Shown one piece after another: positions 1-15,731 of a stretch of DNA of 33,419 nt. The stretch spans positions 1-33,419 of the IMG/VR virus record IMGVR_UViG_3300019764_000013. One strand, 5' to 3'. Position numbers and translations under genes: made by a program. A model generated the notes under the pieces. That model was not told where the DNA came from and did no database searches. It saw nothing but the letters and a program-made list of their open reading frames with translations. This stretch comes from a virus. How positions within the stretch are numbered: the first letter of the stretch is position 1; every line of letters starts with the position of its first letter.

Positions 1-335
1 GTGTGGCATCCCTTGCGTGGCGTGGCCTAAGCGCCGGGAGTACCTTTTTTTTAAAACCAATAGAACACCACGACAACACATTGGCAACATTCCAAATCTC
101 TACAAATTGAAGGCCTTACCATTTTTTTTATATTATTACACGATTTACCAGGGAAACGCCTAAACGTTTTAAATCACTCATGTATTACGTGTATATCATT
201 TATGAATTATATTCGCTTATATGTAATATTTGACGCATCTATTAAAATAATATACACACACATACACGCACCGAATGAACGTTGGAAGCCTTTCGATATA
301 TATAAACATTTATCAACATTTTATCGTTTATTTTA
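1..335. other. Non-coding left part of the window
   Basis: I find no convincing coding region here on either strand. The first 48 bases are clearly GC-rich compared with the AT-rich remainder and end in a T-run. The rest is low-complexity AT-rich sequence with a CA-rich patch near 255-272. I see no tRNA or rRNA. It precedes the repeat-dense segment that starts at about 336. Confidence 0.6.
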
Positions 336-423
336 TTTTGCTACACATTAACGATTGATTATCAACGATTTAACGATTTTGCTACAAAAAAAATATTATT
401 GTAGCGGTTTTTGTTACACTCTT

Positions 424-448
424 AAACCCTTGAAAATGCTGGGTTTTT
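424..448. terminator. Hairpin inside the repeat region
   Basis: AAACCC at 424-429 pairs with GGGTTT at 441-446 across an 11-base loop, followed by a short T-run. It could end a transcript entering from the left, but the stem is only 6 bp. Confidence 0.35.
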
Positions 449-592
449 CCCTTTACTACTACAAAACTACAATAATAATATAAATATATATATATATAAG
501 GGCGTTTGTAATTTCGTATTTTGGTCATATACATATATTTATATATATATCTGTTGTGCGGATTTTTTTGTAGTTTTGTAGCAAAACAACGT

Positions 593-638
593 AAACCCGC
601 ATAAATAGAGGGTTTGAGGGTGTAACGGTAGCCGTTGC
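593..638. other. Two adjacent small hairpins
   Basis: AAACCC (593-598) pairs with GGGTTT (610-615). Directly after it, GTAACGG (622-628) pairs with CCGTTGC (632-638) over a three-base loop. They lie between copies of the 13-mer repeat. They may be structural parts of an origin or simply local palindromes. Confidence 0.35.
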
Positions 639-693
639 AAATTGTGTTTTTGCTACAAAATTTTGTAGCAAAATAAAAAAGTTGTTTTATTAT

Positions 694-823
694 ATTAAAA
701 TAAGCGCTTTATAATATCAATTATAAGCGCCTTATAATATAAGTTTTTCACGCTGAACTTAAACAAAAATCGTCCTTTTAAATAAGTTTTTCGCGCCGAA
801 CTATTAAAATAAGCGCTTATTTT
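694..823. repeat. Direct repeats and GCGC-centred palindromes
   Basis: ATTAAAATAAGCGCTT occurs identically at 694-709 and 803-818. AAGTTTTTCACGCTGAACT (741-759) recurs with two changes at 784-802. A perfect 18-bp palindrome centred on GCGC covers 806-823, and a near-palindrome of the same type covers 721-737. The cluster ends about 57 bases upstream of the -7 element at 880-887, so it could be an operator set for the genes starting at 918 or part of an origin. Confidence 0.6.
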
Positions 824-879
824 TAACATATCGGAATATTATTTTTTAAATATATTATGAATTAATAAAAATAATATAC

Positions 880-887
880 TATATTTG
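880..887 (+). promoter_or_regulatory. Bacteroidota -7 promoter element TATATTTG
   Basis: An exact match to TAnnTTTG, 30 bases upstream of the ATG at 918. An in-frame TTG at 885 lies inside this element, so it cannot be the start of the protein made from this promoter. That decides the start at 918. No good -33 TTTG is evident. Confidence 0.55.
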
Positions 888-917
888 AACTATATAAAAA
901 TAAAAAGTAATATTATT

Positions 918-1448
918 ATGGAAAATGAAGTGATTAAAAACAGTTTAAAAGGATTAAAGATTGGCGATTCAATGTCATTTGAATCGAAATCCCGTCAAAA
1001 CCTGAAATTAATTATTGACGAAATGGAAGAAGATTTCAAAATTATTAAGGTGTCAGAAACGATATATTCAATTTTAAGGATTGACGCTTCAGAATCGAAT
1101 GCCGTAAAAAAAGTATCTGAAGCGGTTTTCCGTTTAAATTGGTTCAATCAAATAAAAATCAATTGTTCGCCGTCTTATGCTCGCGCGTTGATTTGTAAAC
1201 ACAACAAAGAAAATTCGGATTCTATCAAAGTTAGAAAAAGCGGAAACGGTGTTGTAATATTTAGATTGAATATTAATATTGATACAACGTCAATAAATGA
1301 TTTATCTGATATGATCGACGAATTAAATTATTTAATTCATTTAAAACAAACACCGGAAACGATTCACGACGACGATTTCGACCAGGTGGCCGAAGGTGAA
1401 TCAATTGTGAATTTTGAAGACGAAATCAACGAAGAAATAATCGACTAA
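918..1448 (+). CDS. Hypothetical protein, acidic C-terminus
   Basis: A 176-residue soluble protein that I do not recognise. The start is the ATG at 918, because the upstream in-frame TTG at 885 falls within the promoter -7 element. No signal peptide or membrane segment is visible. The middle has mixed charge with a predicted alternation of strands and helices. The last 35 residues are very acidic (DDDFD near 152-156, then a Glu/Asp-rich tail), as is common for phage DNA-mimic or protein-binding tails. It is the first gene after the repeat-rich non-coding region and is the likeliest product of the promoter there. A role in replication initiation or in binding the upstream repeats is only a positional guess. 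Confidence 0.65.
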   Translation: MENEVIKNSLKGLKIGDSMSFESKSRQNLKLIIDEMEEDFKIIKVSETIYSILRIDASESNAVKKVSEAVFRLNWFNQIKINCSPSYARALICKHNKENSDSIKVRKSGNGVVIFRLNINIDTTSINDLSDMIDELNYLIHLKQTPETIHDDDFDQVAEGESIVNFEDEINEEIID

Positions 1449-1506
1449 AAAAAAGGATCGATTAATTTTAACGTGATTTGTATATGATTAGTACGTGTAA
1501 AAATAC

Positions 1507-1530
1507 AAAGTGGTCGAATTTGACCACTTT
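1507..1530. terminator. Perfect 9-bp hairpin, terminator-like
   Basis: AAAGTGGTC (1507-1515) pairs perfectly with GACCACTTT (1522-1530) around a six-base loop. It lies 59 bases after the stop of the gene at 918-1448. There is no long T-run on the + strand, so it may be a weak terminator, an RNA-stabilising 3' end or an operator. Confidence 0.45.
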
Positions 1531-1607
1531 AAAAATAGATAAATAATAACCTTAATGTTAGACATAGTAAGTATTAATTATATACGTTGTTATGCACTTT
1601 TAAAATT

Positions 1608-1790
1608 ATGGAAATAAGAAATATTACCTTGATAGACTTTCAATACAATTGCTATAATGGACTGAACTTTGAATTTCTAAATATAGAAGTAGGAAAATTT
1701 GATGGTTGTTTATTAGGTTTTGAATTAGCACCAACTTTTTTTAATATACACTTACTTTTCTTTTATTTAGAAATTAAGAAGCCTTGGTAA
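1608..1790 (+). CDS. Small hypothetical protein (60 aa)
   Basis: A 60-residue protein rich in aromatic and aliphatic residues (many Phe, Leu, Ile, Tyr), with a hydrophobic stretch near residues 39-53 that might be membrane-associated. The start is taken as the ATG at 1608; an in-frame TTG 21 bases earlier is less likely. It is isolated by about 160 bases on the left and 100 on the right, with a palindrome before it and an imperfect hairpin after it (about 1815-1846). Its cysteine and aromatic composition differs from that of its neighbours. I do not recognise the family, and it could be a stray cassette gene. Confidence 0.5.
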   Translation: MEIRNITLIDFQYNCYNGLNFEFLNIEVGKFDGCLLGFELAPTFFNIHLLFFYLEIKKPW

Positions 1791-1887
1791 TAATTTTTAT
1801 TGTGCCTAATATCCGAACATGGCGCGTTTTAATGCGCTATTGTTCACCGTTAAAATTTAAACAGTAAAACAGTAAAAAAAAAATACC

Positions 1888-2391
1888 ATGAAAAAAGAAA
1901 ACCAACAAGTCGGACCAATATCCGCAACAAGTCCGGACGGATTGACGTTTTATTCGACGATACGTCGAACAAGAAACGGTCAATATATGATAACAATTCG
2001 CGAATTTATTAGTTCAAAAAAAAATCATTACACTTTAACAAAGCGATACGGATTCAAAACGCAAGCGGCCGCCAATGACAAATTATTGAAAATCGTTCCT
2101 TCAGGTTCAGAAATCGAAGGCGATTCGGTAATAATACCCGAAAAAAAGCCGGTAACTAATAAAGATTTGATTTTGCGTTTAACTGACTTTGTTAATATAA
2201 CTACAAAAACGGACGAATTCGAATTTATATTGGGTGGTGACGGTCGTTCCCGTCCATGGAGTGAACAACGCGTCGGCAGCATCACAACAATTGAAGTTTT
2301 GCCCGGTGTAAAGTTAGAAGGCAAACAAATAGAATTGATTCAAAAATCAATTTTATCGTTTCAATCTGTCGATAAATTTATAATAAAATAA
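1888..2391 (+). CDS. Hypothetical protein (167 aa)
   Basis: A 167-residue soluble protein with no signal peptide or membrane segment. The first 70 residues are basic and look like a beta-rich domain (alternating hydrophobic residues around 18-60, with an RTRNG turn). They could bind nucleic acid in the way of small integrase-type N-terminal domains, but I cannot name a family. The remainder is mixed alpha/beta with an acidic patch near residue 112. The ATG follows an A-rich leader holding two tandem copies of ACAGTAAAA. It lies three bases upstream of the next gene, so the two are almost certainly co-transcribed and probably act together. Confidence 0.7.
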   Translation: MKKENQQVGPISATSPDGLTFYSTIRRTRNGQYMITIREFISSKKNHYTLTKRYGFKTQAAANDKLLKIVPSGSEIEGDSVIIPEKKPVTNKDLILRLTDFVNITTKTDEFEFILGGDGRSRPWSEQRVGSITTIEVLPGVKLEGKQIELIQKSILSFQSVDKFIIK

Positions 2392-2394
2392 ACC

Positions 2395-2910
2395 ATGAAA
2401 ATAACCGAATTAAAACATAAAATGAAGTCGTATCGAAAGGAATACGCAATGGAAACGAAGGAATTCGCGGATTTATCCGGAATTCCACACCAACAGATTA
2501 AAAATTATGAATCCGGAATATTAAATCCTAAGTCAGCGGCATTGAAGAAAATTTGCAAATTTATGGAATTGGACCAGGACACGACGGACGGTTTATTGCT
2601 TCAGGTTATGCGAAAAAGTTATCGCATTGAATTATTAGTTTCGGATTTTTTATCAAATAAACTTACAATCGAACAAATTGCGTCACGTGTTGAATGTTCT
2701 GAAGACTTTGTGATCAAAACGATTAATAAAAGTGACAAAAATCATTTAAAAATACAAGTTAGAAGAAAAAAAGTAAAACCCGAAAAAATTGAATATCCAG
2801 GGTCGGGACTATCTATTCAACACAATGATAAAACCGGAACGATTGGAAATTGGGACAATATGACGGACGACGAACGGGCGCCGTATATGGTAACTAAACG
2901 GCCATTTTGA
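2395..2910 (+). CDS. XRE-family HTH DNA-binding protein
   Basis: A 171-residue protein with an XRE/Cro-type helix-turn-helix at about residues 12-62: helix, the recognition pattern FADLSGIPHQQIKNYESG, then a closing helix ending near MELDQ. A second possible HTH lies at about 88-112 (LTIEQIASRVECSEDFVIKTIN), which would make two DNA-reading heads. A basic stretch RRKKVK at 122-127 follows, then a polar tail with an acidic DDDE patch. Known members of this family are repressors, activators or plasmid/phage copy-control proteins. Here the gene closes a short + operon next to the repeat-rich region, so it may bind those repeats (inference). A strong terminator follows 20 bases later. Confidence 0.8.
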   Translation: MKITELKHKMKSYRKEYAMETKEFADLSGIPHQQIKNYESGILNPKSAALKKICKFMELDQDTTDGLLLQVMRKSYRIELLVSDFLSNKLTIEQIASRVECSEDFVIKTINKSDKNHLKIQVRRKKVKPEKIEYPGSGLSIQHNDKTGTIGNWDNMTDDERAPYMVTKRPF

Positions 2911-2929
2911 TATAAAATTGGCAATCAAT

Positions 2930-2965
2930 AAAAAACCGCAACGATTTAATTCGCTGCGGTTTTTT
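2930..2965. terminator. Bidirectional rho-independent terminator
   Basis: An A6 run and CCGCA (2936-2940) pair with TGCGG (2955-2959) and a T6 run. The stem continues inward as CGA/TCG after one mismatch. It ends the + operon 918-2910. Read on the - strand it also ends a possible short RNA from the promoter element at 3002-3009. Confidence 0.85.
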
Positions 2966-2997
2966 CTTTTTAATGTGTAAAAATTAAAAACTATGGT
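2931..2997 (-). ncRNA. Candidate small RNA, about 65 nt
   Basis: On the - strand a perfect -7 element (3009-3002) is followed within about 65 bases by the bidirectional terminator at 2930-2965. There is no start codon followed by a meaningful reading frame between them. A short non-coding transcript is therefore predicted, but the start point is inferred from the promoter element alone. Confidence 0.35.
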
Positions 2998-3001
2998 TCG
3001 A

Positions 3002-3179: not shown

Positions 3180-3425
3180 TCAATCAATTCGTTTTTTTTT
3201 CCAATCATACCAAACGGACAACGGTTTCGGGTAAATATTGTTAATAATTTGGTTTTTTGTGTACTTTTTCCAGGGTGTGACGTCTTGTTTTTGTTTTTTA
3301 GTGTATTGATTAACTGAACCAATAAAATCACCCTGAAACGGTTGTTTTTGCGGTTTACTTTTATTAATTATTAAAGTAATAGAGAAGGCCGCAATAATTA
3401 CGGCCAAAAATAAATAATTTTTCAT
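3180..3425 (-). CDS. Small membrane-anchored protein (81 aa)
   Basis: An 81-residue protein with an N-terminal hydrophobic segment at residues 4-21 after MKN, followed by a basic, Lys/Gln-rich soluble part ending in WYDWKKKRID. This is a single-pass membrane protein with its tail probably in the periplasm, or an uncleaved signal anchor. I do not recognise a family. It is the last gene of the leftward arm. Its upstream spacer (3426-3540) can fold into a branched structure that would form its 5' leader. The stop codon overlaps a weak A/T-flanked hairpin (about 3163-3200) that may act as its terminator. Confidence 0.65.
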   Translation of the reverse strand: MKNYLFLAVIIAAFSITLIINKSKPQKQPFQGDFIGSVNQYTKKQKQDVTPWKKYTKNQIINNIYPKPLSVWYDWKKKRID

Positions 3426-6123: not shown

Positions 6124-8925
6124 TTAAAACGGGATTTCGTCTTCGTTTTCGTCCCTTGCGTTTGTCAAATTTTCATTCATTGCCGACGTATATTTTTCAA
6201 CCGGGACAATTACTTCGTTTTCGTCAATTAATACGCTAATCGGAAGGCTAATCGATCGAGAACGAACGCCGGGCGTAAATTGTCGCGGCGTTTCCTTTTG
6301 TGCGCCTTTCAATCGCTCTAAAACTTTCGAATGATTGTTTTTCCATGATGTGTTTTTTATCATGTTTTTTATTTCCGGCGCTGAATTCGCGAAATATATT
6401 CGTTCTGACTTGACAATTATTCCGTTTCTTCTTAAAATATCCGTTGCGTTTTTCGGTGTGATTCTCATTGAACTCTTATTTTCTGAAGCCAACAAAATTA
6501 ATTCACCGATTGAACGTTCAACGGGTGTGAATTCTGTTTCAACTCTTAATTTTGTTGAAATAATAGTGACAAACAATTGAATTTCGTCGTTATTTGTTTC
6601 GATTCCTTTTTCTTCAGTCCAATCAATAGAAGAAACAAAATTTTTCGCGTCTTCGATTGAAATCACGTCGTCAGATTCTAACGACCAGGCACCGGCCAAC
6701 ATTGTCGCCACTTGATCACCAATTCTTTGTCCGCCTATCTCATGCGCTGCGATTTCCTTAATTATTTTAATATTTTCAATAATTACCGGCATTAATTTAA
6801 TCGTTCGCGCTTGTAAATCGTGAACAAAATCGGCCGTAACCATACTATCCCAACGATTCGATAATTTTTCAAATTCTTTGCTCAACTGCAAATCATTCGG
6901 TTTAAATCCTAAAACGGTGAAACGCGATAAATCGGCTTTTTTTGATAAATGAACACCGATTGAAGAAAACGCAAACATTGATCGAATGTTGTATGTTTTA
7001 GCGCCGCCACCTTGCGAACCGTGCAAAATCACACCCGAATCGGAAGTGGACGACGCACGCGCCAACGCGACAATGTTTTGAATTCTGTCGGCGTCCCTTT
7101 GGTCATCAATGTCAGATTCGTCAAATAATATCGGTAAAGCGTCTTTATTAAGTACCTGACGGATTCCGGCTTCGGTTGTTTTTCCAACAACTGCGATTCC
7201 GGTTTCGCCCATTAATTTACGTACAACATTCGACATTGTCCACGATTTACCCGAACCCGCCGGACCGGTCAACCAAATATTTGAACGCCATTTCAATGCG
7301 CCACTAAACGGCGCCAAAACGCACCAACCGGCCAACAATATCGCATTTGCGGGACGTTCCCAATTTAACTTCAATAATATTTCATTAATCAAAATTGATT
7401 TTTCCTTCGGAAGTGGTGTTCCTTCACCAAATCCAAGCGGCGACGCCAATTCGTAACAATGATTTGATTTAAAATCGTTCAAATTATATTTTTCGCCTTC
7501 CGATAAAATTTGCTTTCCTGAATGGATTACTAATTTTTGACCGCCTTTTCCATCACTATCCAACCACGCACCACGACCGCGAATCAATTTTTCGTCATAT
7601 GTTTCAAACTTGAATGAATTTCCAACCAAATACGCTTCGGCGGCCTTCACGTCAAACCCTGGCGATTTCTTTGGGAAATTGTCTTCCCAATAATTCAACG
7701 GGGCGATTTGCTGCAAATTTGAAGCGCTGAAGCCGGTCGAAGTTATCCGAATAACCATTTTCGCGCGGAAACTATAAAAATAATGAACAATTGAATCTTT
7801 GTCGTCTTTTAAATATCCTAAAAATCTGAAATGTTCGTTTTGTGCGTATTGCTTCGCCGGTTTTGGTGGCAATGGTGGATTTTTAGGCGGAACGATTATT
7901 TTTTCCGGTTGTTTTTTTATTGGTTCCGGTAATGGCGGAACGTCCATTTTGTTCCCGGTAATATATGCGCGTAATTCGCCCGGCTTCCATTTTTGATCGG
8001 CGCAATCCCATTTGTGCGGCTTGTCAGGTGTATTTTTAACCATCCAACAAACATTCGCAAAACCTTTGATTAATTCGTTCAAATTTATCATTGCTAAATT
8101 TCCAGGTTGTTCGCTAAATGGTTTTATTTGTCCGGCTTTTTCGTGTTTTTCACCATATTTTTGTTCTGTGTCATTATCCGGAAATAAAACAACATTTCGA
8201 TTTTTCAATGGTTTAAAATTTGTTTTCTTTAAACCATTAGCGCCACCAATCCAACACGTGGCTACGGATTTTTCCGGGTCCAATTCAGCTTGCGCAGCTT
8301 CGGCGGTTTTTTCACCTTCAACGATAATAATCGCCGCTTTTGGGTTTTTACGTATTAAATCCAGGTTATACAATGGACGATCCTTTGGAATTCCTTTCCA
8401 TGACCACGATTCAACGCCGTTTGTTTTTCCGTAAGTATATGGCAACACTTGTTTTTCGCCGTCGCCTAAATCAAAACGACATACATACGAAACAACGTCA
8501 CCGTTTGCGTTTTTATATGACCACGTTTTGTTCGGTTCCCCGAACTTATTATGGTTAATAATTGGCGTTTGTTGTGGTGGGTTTGGAATAAATGTCCATT
8601 CGGGCGCCGTTTCACGTTTTACAACTTGTTTTTTTTCAATTGAAGTATTTTCCGACAATGGTCCGCCGTTTATTTCTTCAAGTGCTTCATGAAATGGAAT
8701 TCCGTATTCCTTCAAAAATTGTATTGAATCGCCACCCTTTCCACACGCAAAACATTTGAAAACTTGTTTTCCTTCGTTTACTTGTAAACTGTCTTTATGA
8801 TCGTCATGGAATGGACAAACGCCATAAAATTCGACACCCCTTTTTGTTAATGGAACGCGTCGTTCAATTACTTCAATTATATTCGTTCGCGCTTTTAATT
8901 CGTCAATTTGAAATTTATCGGTCAT
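6124..8925 (-). CDS. Primase-helicase (CHC2, TOPRIM, P-loop)
   Basis: A 933-residue replication protein in three parts. (1) A CHC2-type zinc finger with C37, H40, C58 and C61, which reads template DNA in DnaG-like primases. (2) A TOPRIM-like catalytic fold with the conserved glutamate in IVEGEK (E204) and an acidic PDND motif (D250, D252) for metal-dependent primer synthesis. (3) After a proline-rich linker (about 328-356), a P-loop ATPase domain with Walker A GPAGSGKS (554-561) and Walker B LPILFDES (597-604), in a DUF927-like/superfamily 3-like setting. Fused primase-helicases of this type drive the fork in phages and plasmids. It is the core of the leftward replication arm. The ATG follows an A-rich leader; only a near-match (TATATTTA) to the -7 element lies upstream. 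Confidence 0.9.
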   Translation of the reverse strand: MTDKFQIDELKARTNIIEVIERRVPLTKRGVEFYGVCPFHDDHKDSLQVNEGKQVFKCFACGKGGDSIQFLKEYGIPFHEALEEINGGPLSENTSIEKKQVVKRETAPEWTFIPNPPQQTPIINHNKFGEPNKTWSYKNANGDVVSYVCRFDLGDGEKQVLPYTYGKTNGVESWSWKGIPKDRPLYNLDLIRKNPKAAIIIVEGEKTAEAAQAELDPEKSVATCWIGGANGLKKTNFKPLKNRNVVLFPDNDTEQKYGEKHEKAGQIKPFSEQPGNLAMINLNELIKGFANVCWMVKNTPDKPHKWDCADQKWKPGELRAYITGNKMDVPPLPEPIKKQPEKIIVPPKNPPLPPKPAKQYAQNEHFRFLGYLKDDKDSIVHYFYSFRAKMVIRITSTGFSASNLQQIAPLNYWEDNFPKKSPGFDVKAAEAYLVGNSFKFETYDEKLIRGRGAWLDSDGKGGQKLVIHSGKQILSEGEKYNLNDFKSNHCYELASPLGFGEGTPLPKEKSILINEILLKLNWERPANAILLAGWCVLAPFSGALKWRSNIWLTGPAGSGKSWTMSNVVRKLMGETGIAVVGKTTEAGIRQVLNKDALPILFDESDIDDQRDADRIQNIVALARASSTSDSGVILHGSQGGGAKTYNIRSMFAFSSIGVHLSKKADLSRFTVLGFKPNDLQLSKEFEKLSNRWDSMVTADFVHDLQARTIKLMPVIIENIKIIKEIAAHEIGGQRIGDQVATMLAGAWSLESDDVISIEDAKNFVSSIDWTEEKGIETNNDEIQLFVTIISTKLRVETEFTPVERSIGELILLASENKSSMRITPKNATDILRRNGIIVKSERIYFANSAPEIKNMIKNTSWKNNHSKVLERLKGAQKETPRQFTPGVRSRSISLPISVLIDENEVIVPVEKYTSAMNENLTNARDENEDEIPF

Positions 8926-14656: not shown

Positions 14657-15445
14657 ATGAACGAAAACGAACAATATCACGCCGACACGACACGGATTTC
14701 GAAATCCGGTTGCGACCTTATAAACAAAACGCCGGCAAATTATTATTATAAATATTTAGATCCGAATAGAATCGCCGAAGAAAAATCAAAGGCGTTGATA
14801 ATTGGAAGCGCGTTTCATGCTTATATTTTAGAACGTGACGAATTTAATTCAATGTTTTTCACGTTGCCGGATTTTAAAGGAAAAGGATCAAGGGATAAAA
14901 AGGAACAATTTATTTTGAATAATTCAGGACGGACGCCGCTTTCAATTTCTGACTTCCAAACAATTGTCGGAATGGCTGAAGCATTAAAAAGACATAAATT
15001 AGCAAATCAATTGTTGACCGAACACGGATTCGCCGAACGTGTTTTTCATTGGACGGACGAAGAAACGGGCGCACCGTGCAAATGTAAGCCGGACCGATAC
15101 AATTCCGCCCGCAATATTATAATTGATTTAAAATCGACCGAAGACGCTTCCGAAAATGACTTTAAATTTTCAGCAAAGAAACACCGTTATTTCGTCCAAG
15201 ATCCTTTTTATACTGACGGAATGAAGGCGAACGGATTCGACGTCAAAGGCTTCGTCTTTATTAGCGTAGAAAAAAAACCGCCTTATTTAATAAACTGTTT
15301 CACATATGGCGAAGACGAAAAACAATTCGGCCGGGAACAATATCGCGAAAATCTTAAAACATACGTTGAATGTAAAAAAAACAATAAATGGCCAGGGTAC
15401 ACCCAAGAAATTAAGGATTTGGAAATCCCTGGCGTTGGATTATAA
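14657..15445 (+). CDS. RecE-like PD-(D/E)XK exonuclease
   Basis: A 262-residue nuclease of the exodeoxyribonuclease VIII/RecE C-terminal type (PDDEXK_1/DUF3799-like). The conserved histidine is in IGSAFHAYILE (H54). The catalytic core is CKPDRYN with D146 followed by IIIDLKST with D157 and K159, and a downstream YFVQDPFYTDGM contains the Q181 and Y185 typical of the family. It degrades one strand of linear duplex DNA 5'-3' to leave 3' tails for RecT, encoded 546 bases downstream in the same operon. It is the first gene of the rightward arm, with a clear promoter 29 bases upstream. The size agrees with stand-alone phage versions. Confidence 0.9.
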   Translation: MNENEQYHADTTRISKSGCDLINKTPANYYYKYLDPNRIAEEKSKALIIGSAFHAYILERDEFNSMFFTLPDFKGKGSRDKKEQFILNNSGRTPLSISDFQTIVGMAEALKRHKLANQLLTEHGFAERVFHWTDEETGAPCKCKPDRYNSARNIIIDLKSTEDASENDFKFSAKKHRYFVQDPFYTDGMKANGFDVKGFVFISVEKKPPYLINCFTYGEDEKQFGREQYRENLKTYVECKKNNKWPGYTQEIKDLEIPGVGL

Positions 15446-15470
15446 CGGACGAGAATAAACGACTTTAAAA

Positions 15471-15731
15471 ATGGAATACATACCAGAAAGTACACAAAAA
15501 CACATAGACGATTTAGTTAAAACAATAAACAAACTAAATAAAGAAATAAATAAATTAACATCTGAAAATAAAGACCTAAAAGAGCAATTACATATATATG
15601 TTGTTAACGGTATTTTGTGTGAGAATTGCCATCCTAACGAAATAGATATCACTAGATGCCCCAATTGTAACTCAACCGACCACAGAATGCACAAACCATA
15701 TAAATGTCATGACTGCGGCACTGTGTGGTAA
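15471..15731 (+). CDS. Coiled-coil zinc-ribbon protein
   Basis: An 86-residue protein with an N-terminal coiled coil (residues 8-43, leucine/lysine heptads) and a C-terminal metal-binding region with three CxxC pairs: C50/C53, C63/C66 and C79/C82. The last two pairs form a typical rubredoxin-like zinc ribbon (CPNC...CHDC). The coiled coil would make it a dimer. Such proteins bind DNA, RNA or partner proteins. It lies 25 bases after the RecE-like gene and inside the RecE-RecT operon, so it may adapt or regulate the recombinase. No specific family is recognised. Confidence 0.65.
   Translation: MEYIPESTQKHIDDLVKTINKLNKEINKLTSENKDLKEQLHIYVVNGILCENCHPNEIDITRCPNCNSTDHRMHKPYKCHDCGTVW

Follow-up and report, generated by a model that had tools for sequence, protein, structure and literature searches.

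A probable replication origin made of inverted tandem iterons around an A+T-rich tract in a tailed phage genome

Organization of the locus

The DNA analyzed here, referred to as the window, is a complete and linear IMG/VR record of 33,419 bp. Family scans identified tail and head genes of myovirus type (baseplate J and hub, portal, major head protein), together with RecT/exonuclease, a DEAD helicase and a primase-helicase; a VRR-NUC gene is also encoded. The host is likely to be flavobacterial because the portal shares 36–39% identity with the portals of Flavobacterium phages. Complete-looking related contigs have 46–47 kb, which suggests that roughly 13 kb is absent from the window genome. 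Iteron plasmid origins would have a RepA-type initiator plus DnaA boxes; among the genes examined, the family scans assigned none to the RepA type. No Rfam family was found in positions 1–3000. Note that positions 1533–1622 and about 1797–1860 correspond to a segment that shares 81% identity with Tenacibaculum phage JQ (MT002873 3883-3972), where a small open stretch is followed by GCCTAAC...GTTAGGT, an attC-like hairpin. The segment may be an integron-cassette-like insert common to two flavobacterial phages; it was not found in a search of plasmids.

The left end of the window is noncoding, with no open reading frame of 60 or more amino acids in positions 1–884. The original prediction had described in this gene-free region a 13-mer array in both orientations, a 14-bp inverted repeat around a TA-rich core and a 26-bp palindrome, features that are all confirmed (Table 1). 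Four exact copies of the 13-mer TTTTGTAGCAAAA are present in the window, every one within positions 377–673, and a fifth copy carries two mismatches. At up to one mismatch there is no further match in the 33,419-bp record outside the four. When two mismatches are allowed the total of six copies is at chance level (6.15 expected), and the case for the 13-mer is therefore made by its exact, clustered copies. Four occurrences within positions 1–917 of a 13-mer that uses all four letters were reached in none of 1,000 shuffles (maximum 2). The TGTAG core occurs nine times in positions 336–673, while in 5,000 dinucleotide shuffles of this stretch it averaged 0.52 and never exceeded 4; its density in positions 1–917 is 22 times that of the remaining window.

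The inverted repeat and the palindrome are both perfect. Each 14-bp arm of the former consists of two tandem TGTAG sites with an 8-bp period, the two arms being mutually inverted. These inverted tandem TGTAG pairs across the A+T-rich tract are the most telling feature of the locus. Additional TGTAG sites, two weak hairpins and the palindrome are found outside the inner pairs. The exact 22-bp core of the palindrome has no match in viral contigs. A search with the pattern TTTTGCTACA...TGTAGCAAAA retrieved nine contigs, all devoid of arrays, and was discarded.

Table 1. Features of the window that are relevant for the putative origin.
Position	Strand	Feature	Remark
1–44		Probable genome terminus (cos right end)	Counterpart of the relatives' putative cohesive overhang in its first ~13 bases
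336–348	-	Outer iteron, degenerate copy of TTTTGTAGCAAAA	Two mismatches
377–389	-	Outer iteron, exact 13-mer	
400–404	+	Outer TGTAG core	TTGTAGCGG
424–446		Hairpin AAACCC-loop-GGGTTT	Weak fold, z about -2
459–472	-	Left inner iteron pair, CTACAAAACTACAA	Two TGTAG sites, 8-bp period
473–567		A+T-rich tract, ~95 bp	80% A+T; probable melting region
568–581	+	Right inner iteron pair, TTGTAGTTTTGTAG	Two TGTAG sites
574–586	+	Exact 13-mer	Overlaps right inner iteron pair
593–615		Second hairpin AAACCC-loop-GGGTTT	Weak fold
648–673		Perfect palindrome, 26 bp	Two 13-mers head to head (648–660, -; 661–673, +)
918–1448	+	Conserved gene flanking the putative origin	Acidic C-terminus, no known family; remote homologues in L019, L020 and L099 (23–24% identity)
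6124–8925	-	Primase-helicase, proposed initiator	CHC2 zinc ribbon, TOPRIM-like DUF6371, AAA+ helicase
6376–6588	-	Predicted C-terminal winged helix, proposed iteron reader	Residues ~780–850

A second set of repeats is located between the array and the 918–1448 gene, at positions 693–820 (TATTAAAATAAGCGCTT, ATAAGCGCYTTATAATAT and AAGTTTTTCNCGCNGAACT, two copies each), near a Bacteroidetes-type -7 element (TATATTTG) at about 883–890. These repeats are likely the operator of the 918–2910 genes, possibly for the XRE protein.

Related phages and the genome terminus

Relatives of the window were found by a search with a primase-helicase alignment as query; single-sequence queries, either of the XRE protein or of the primase-helicase alone, retrieved no relatives among viral contigs. 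The primase-helicases of the IMG/VR contigs L019 and L020 (47.4 and 46.3 kb) show 43% identity to that of the window, and the one of L099 shows 48%. The latter is a metagenome-assembled contig whose label Phycisphaerales is probably due to mis-binning. Genes and gene order are common to the window and these three contigs. Each of these contigs carries a noncoding region, about 0.9–1.0 kb long, that adjoins the remote homologue of the 918–1448 gene, with one additional small gene in between in L099. This region holds both inner tandem pairs, with their 8-bp period, around 94–117 bp of A+T-rich DNA. The iteron word itself drifts, being TGTAG with TGTAGTAA flanks in L099 and mostly TGTTGCAA in L019 and L020. 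The array layout is thus in place in the relatives while its letters diverge, a pattern that would be expected of a protein-bound origin.

The same 13 bases, ATAAATGCGAAGC, are found at both ends of L019 and of L020 as a direct terminal repeat. Filled-in 5' cohesive ends would leave such a repeat, which is a candidate 13-nt cos overhang. A lambda-type GpA terminase is encoded at the opposite end (L181:1074-3146). The window start aligns base for base with the repeat-bearing ends of L019 and L020 and its base 1 is, for this reason, probably a cos end; the other end of the window is missing. When positions 1–44 of the window and the ends of L019, L020 and L099 are compared, the contigs of three independent phages begin at the same homologous base, the 13-bp repeat being present in two. 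Of the contigs retrieved with the terminus pattern CGCTGGGAGTACCTTA, one was a true relative and four were chance matches. Past the cos-like end of L099, positions 15380–15483 carry an open frame ending ALGGSGGGHDKACGAVVPKAKIKKFITELNKK that is reminiscent of a DHHA1 motif; this would be host DNA or else the opposite end of the genome joined to the contig.

Distribution of the iteron architecture

The signature ACTACANNACTACA-N{90,120}-TGTNGTTTTGTNG has four matches in 2.9 million viral contigs, namely L019, L020, L191 and L192, while the reversed-pattern control has none in the same contigs; the TGTAG signature is absent from 395 Bacteroidia genomes. The inner pairs are kept in L019, L020, L099, L191 and L192. 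In L191 the virion genes are different and Firmicute-like, and the array is flanked on one side by the C-terminal end of a phage helicase (PHROG 256, E 8.5e-15) and on the other by a VRR-NUC gene. L192 has a terminase and a portal of another kind. Since the virion genes of these two contigs differ, and VRR-NUC and DEAD helicase genes are also found in the window, the element seems to move together with replication genes and not with virion genes. Several GGAATAnATTATATAnATGTATnATATAATG-like repeat copies adjoin the array of L192 (9640–9900).

A word-free test was applied to 97 loci (1.53 Mb in total) that encode relatives of the primase-helicase. It identifies a 6-mer repeated at a given period whose reverse complement is repeated at the same period 70–170 bp away. 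The spacings of 8 and 9 were noticed post hoc, so that spacings 6–14 and a reversed control were run alongside. For 6-mers, seven of the nine matches at period 8 are located 55–88 bp behind the primase-helicase gene, as are all eight matches at period 9 (55–161 bp behind it); the remaining periods gave none and the reversed controls none near the gene in the 97 loci. With 5-mers at period 8 or 9, 27 of the 97 loci, which are partly non-independent as related loci are counted more than once, have a match 5–161 bp behind the gene, versus eight matches elsewhere in the 1.5 Mb. Periods 6, 7, 10, 11 and 12 gave no 5-mer match near the primase-helicase gene. About ten iteron words are used, including TGTAAC, TGTTAC, TCTCAC, TGTCAC, CCTAAC, CGTAAG, CTGAC and TGTAG, a variation that suggests several independent lines. 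The array of the window, like those of its closest three relatives (L019, L020, L099), is found 5–8 kb from the primase-helicase gene (5.4 kb from its 3' end in the window) and not directly behind it, so that the link between the two is drawn there by analogy.

The primase-helicase as candidate initiator

The AlphaFold2 model of the 933-residue primase-helicase has a pLDDT of 85.7. The best structural match of its helicase half is SCCmec Cch (5dgk; Z 15.8, 416 residues aligned, rmsd 6.8), and a Z of 14.1 is obtained with SaPI5 PriRep (7ola); note that MCM helicases score nearly as well and that the rmsd of the fold matches is high. SaPIbov1 Rep (8tch, E 2.8e-6) is included in the Foldseek match list. 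In the model, residues ~780–850 form a helix-turn-helix with a beta hairpin, and this segment, which is conserved across the family, is likely a winged helix. The predicted Cch/SaPI Rep-like fold and the winged-helix end make the primase-helicase the best candidate initiator, and we regard it with good confidence as the most probable one. The original prediction had listed this protein as a possible binder of the array. Its candidacy as a putative binder is supported by the predicted fold and by the presence of the same architecture behind homologous genes in the 27 loci. Within residues 796–850, the recognition helix tends to end in LRR or LRQ in the TGTAG/TGTTG group and in LER or LGR in the other proteins; since common ancestry confounds this tendency, we make no claim from it.

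In the mechanism that we propose, the primase-helicase would bind the iterons through its C-terminal winged helix and would probably act as two hexamers of opposite polarity. It would melt the A+T-rich tract and load itself without a separate loader, its CHC2/TOPRIM half then priming both forks. The outer sites and the 26-bp palindrome may bring in extra initiator molecules.

Origin of replication versus other functions

The conservation of the layout in relatives and its likeness to the annotated origin of phage Sfi21 (see the last section) strongly support the replication origin put forward in the original prediction. On this sequence evidence we assign a probability of about 0.88 to positions 336–673 being the phage's origin of DNA replication; a further origin may exist within the absent ~13 kb. 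An inflection of GC skew had also been anticipated at the array. The cumulative skew turns instead near 3.5 kb, at a switch in gene direction, and the test is uninformative.

The array could be an origin whose initiator is another protein, for instance the 918–1448 product recruiting the primase-helicase. The family of this product does flank the array in the window and in its nearest relatives. It is, however, conserved at only 23–24% identity, has an acidic tail and displays no recognizable DNA-binding fold, its low-confidence model being too poor for a structure search; moreover, in the 27 other loci the architecture follows the primase-helicase gene. We thus consider this variant unlikely. 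Less probable still is the cooperative operator that had been offered as the alternative to an origin, with the XRE regulator (2395–2910) or another repressor of the 918–2910 genes as its ligand. Inverted sites in noncoding DNA upstream of genes that include the XRE one would suit such a role, and a regulator is expected to be conserved with its site, but no XRE homologue was found in L019, L020 and L099, which keep the array, or in other collections. The likely promoter of the 918–2910 genes is 200–550 bp away from the sites, the different repeat set at 693–820 is closer to it, and tandem pairs on the two sides of an A+T-rich tract are origin-like. The XRE protein is thus disfavored as binder.

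The proximity of the array to the probable cos end (336–673 bp in the window, similar in L019, L020 and L099) would also be compatible with a packaging element, that is, a cosB-like site bound by terminase. Repeats of a cosB site would be expected on that side of the cos cut where the terminase genes lie, but the array is on the opposite one, and L191 and the 27 primase loci have the same architecture among replication genes; a packaging role is accordingly about as improbable as that of an operator, if not slightly more so. Clusters of inverted sites are also found at partition and attP loci, where they act with ParB or a tyrosine integrase. Neither a tyrosine integrase nor a ParB_N match was detected in the incomplete window record or in two relatives of 46–47 kb, and a parS-like site or attP arm sites are the least credible of these explanations. 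An origin served by the primase-helicase is the reading retained below.

Comparison with known origins

The origins of PICIs are stated to "always" have an A+T-rich region with a set of iterons on either side (PMC6092414), and the C-terminal domain of SaPI Rep recognizes iterons just downstream of its own gene (PMC7581432). The window shares with these systems the two iteron sets (459–472 and 568–581) around A+T-rich DNA (473–567), and its helicase, of similar predicted fold, would likewise load itself. It differs in being a full-size tailed phage whose helicase is fused to a CHC2/TOPRIM primase. PICI origins are, in addition, immediately 3' of rep, as is the architecture behind the primase-helicase genes of the same family in the 27 loci, whereas the window origin would be 5.4 kb from the gene and beside cos. 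The array probably works like PICI and Sfi21 origins; we do not class it among the PICI origins, since it is located apart from the initiator gene and so breaks the PICI rule. SCCmec Cch provides the best structural match, and the related Cch2 binds iterons behind its own gene (PMC7581432), at a putative origin. The Cch2 site has just three iterons, and this system is not a phage and lacks the fused primase.

The closest parallel in layout is offered by Streptococcus thermophilus phage Sfi21, whose record annotates a 302-bp noncoding "origin of replication" (PER element) that is described as an independent origin activated by infection (PMC6356513). It is composed of a hairpin, AGTTACTTAGTTACT, an A+T tract, GTAACTAAGTAACTA and a second hairpin (L193 8540-8720). 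Window positions 424–615 have the same parts in the same order within one noncoding element: AAACCC/GGGTTT hairpin, tandem 8-bp pair, A+T tract, inverted pair and second hairpin. The Sfi21 iteron is GTTACTTA-like instead of TGTAG, and the Sfi21 origin is found directly behind a D5/DUF5906 helicase gene without fused CHC2 primase. In the cultured Synechococcus phage S-H1 (MK105819) the gene of a primase-helicase relative (33.6% identity) is followed by repeats of the CCTAACGGT type, then by a short run of A+T-rich DNA and by the repeats in inverted form. This candidate, directly behind the gene (L017 about 3250-3390), is a probable origin in a cultured phage; its repeats are imperfect, have another iteron and were spotted by eye, not by the exact test.

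We lean towards the view that inverted iteron pairs around an A+T tract define a widespread class of tailed-phage origins paired with Cch/SaPI-Rep-like primase-helicases, their layout not being a PICI hallmark (contra PMC6092414). Iteron words would be swapped among lineages and read by the winged helix, so that specificity could be readable as a code. The origins of most environmental phages are unknown, and the layout gives a simple sequence rule to locate them beside one helicase family. Since about ten iteron words are paired with homologous winged helices, the specificity between initiator and origin is open to a direct test. The same organization in full-size phages, namely the window, its relatives and Sfi21, bears on the source of the PICI replication module. 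Judged against the open-access literature, this kind of origin is known, while its setting and its breadth among tailed phages appear to be new; such breadth would contradict the published statement that confines the organization to PICIs (PMC6092414).
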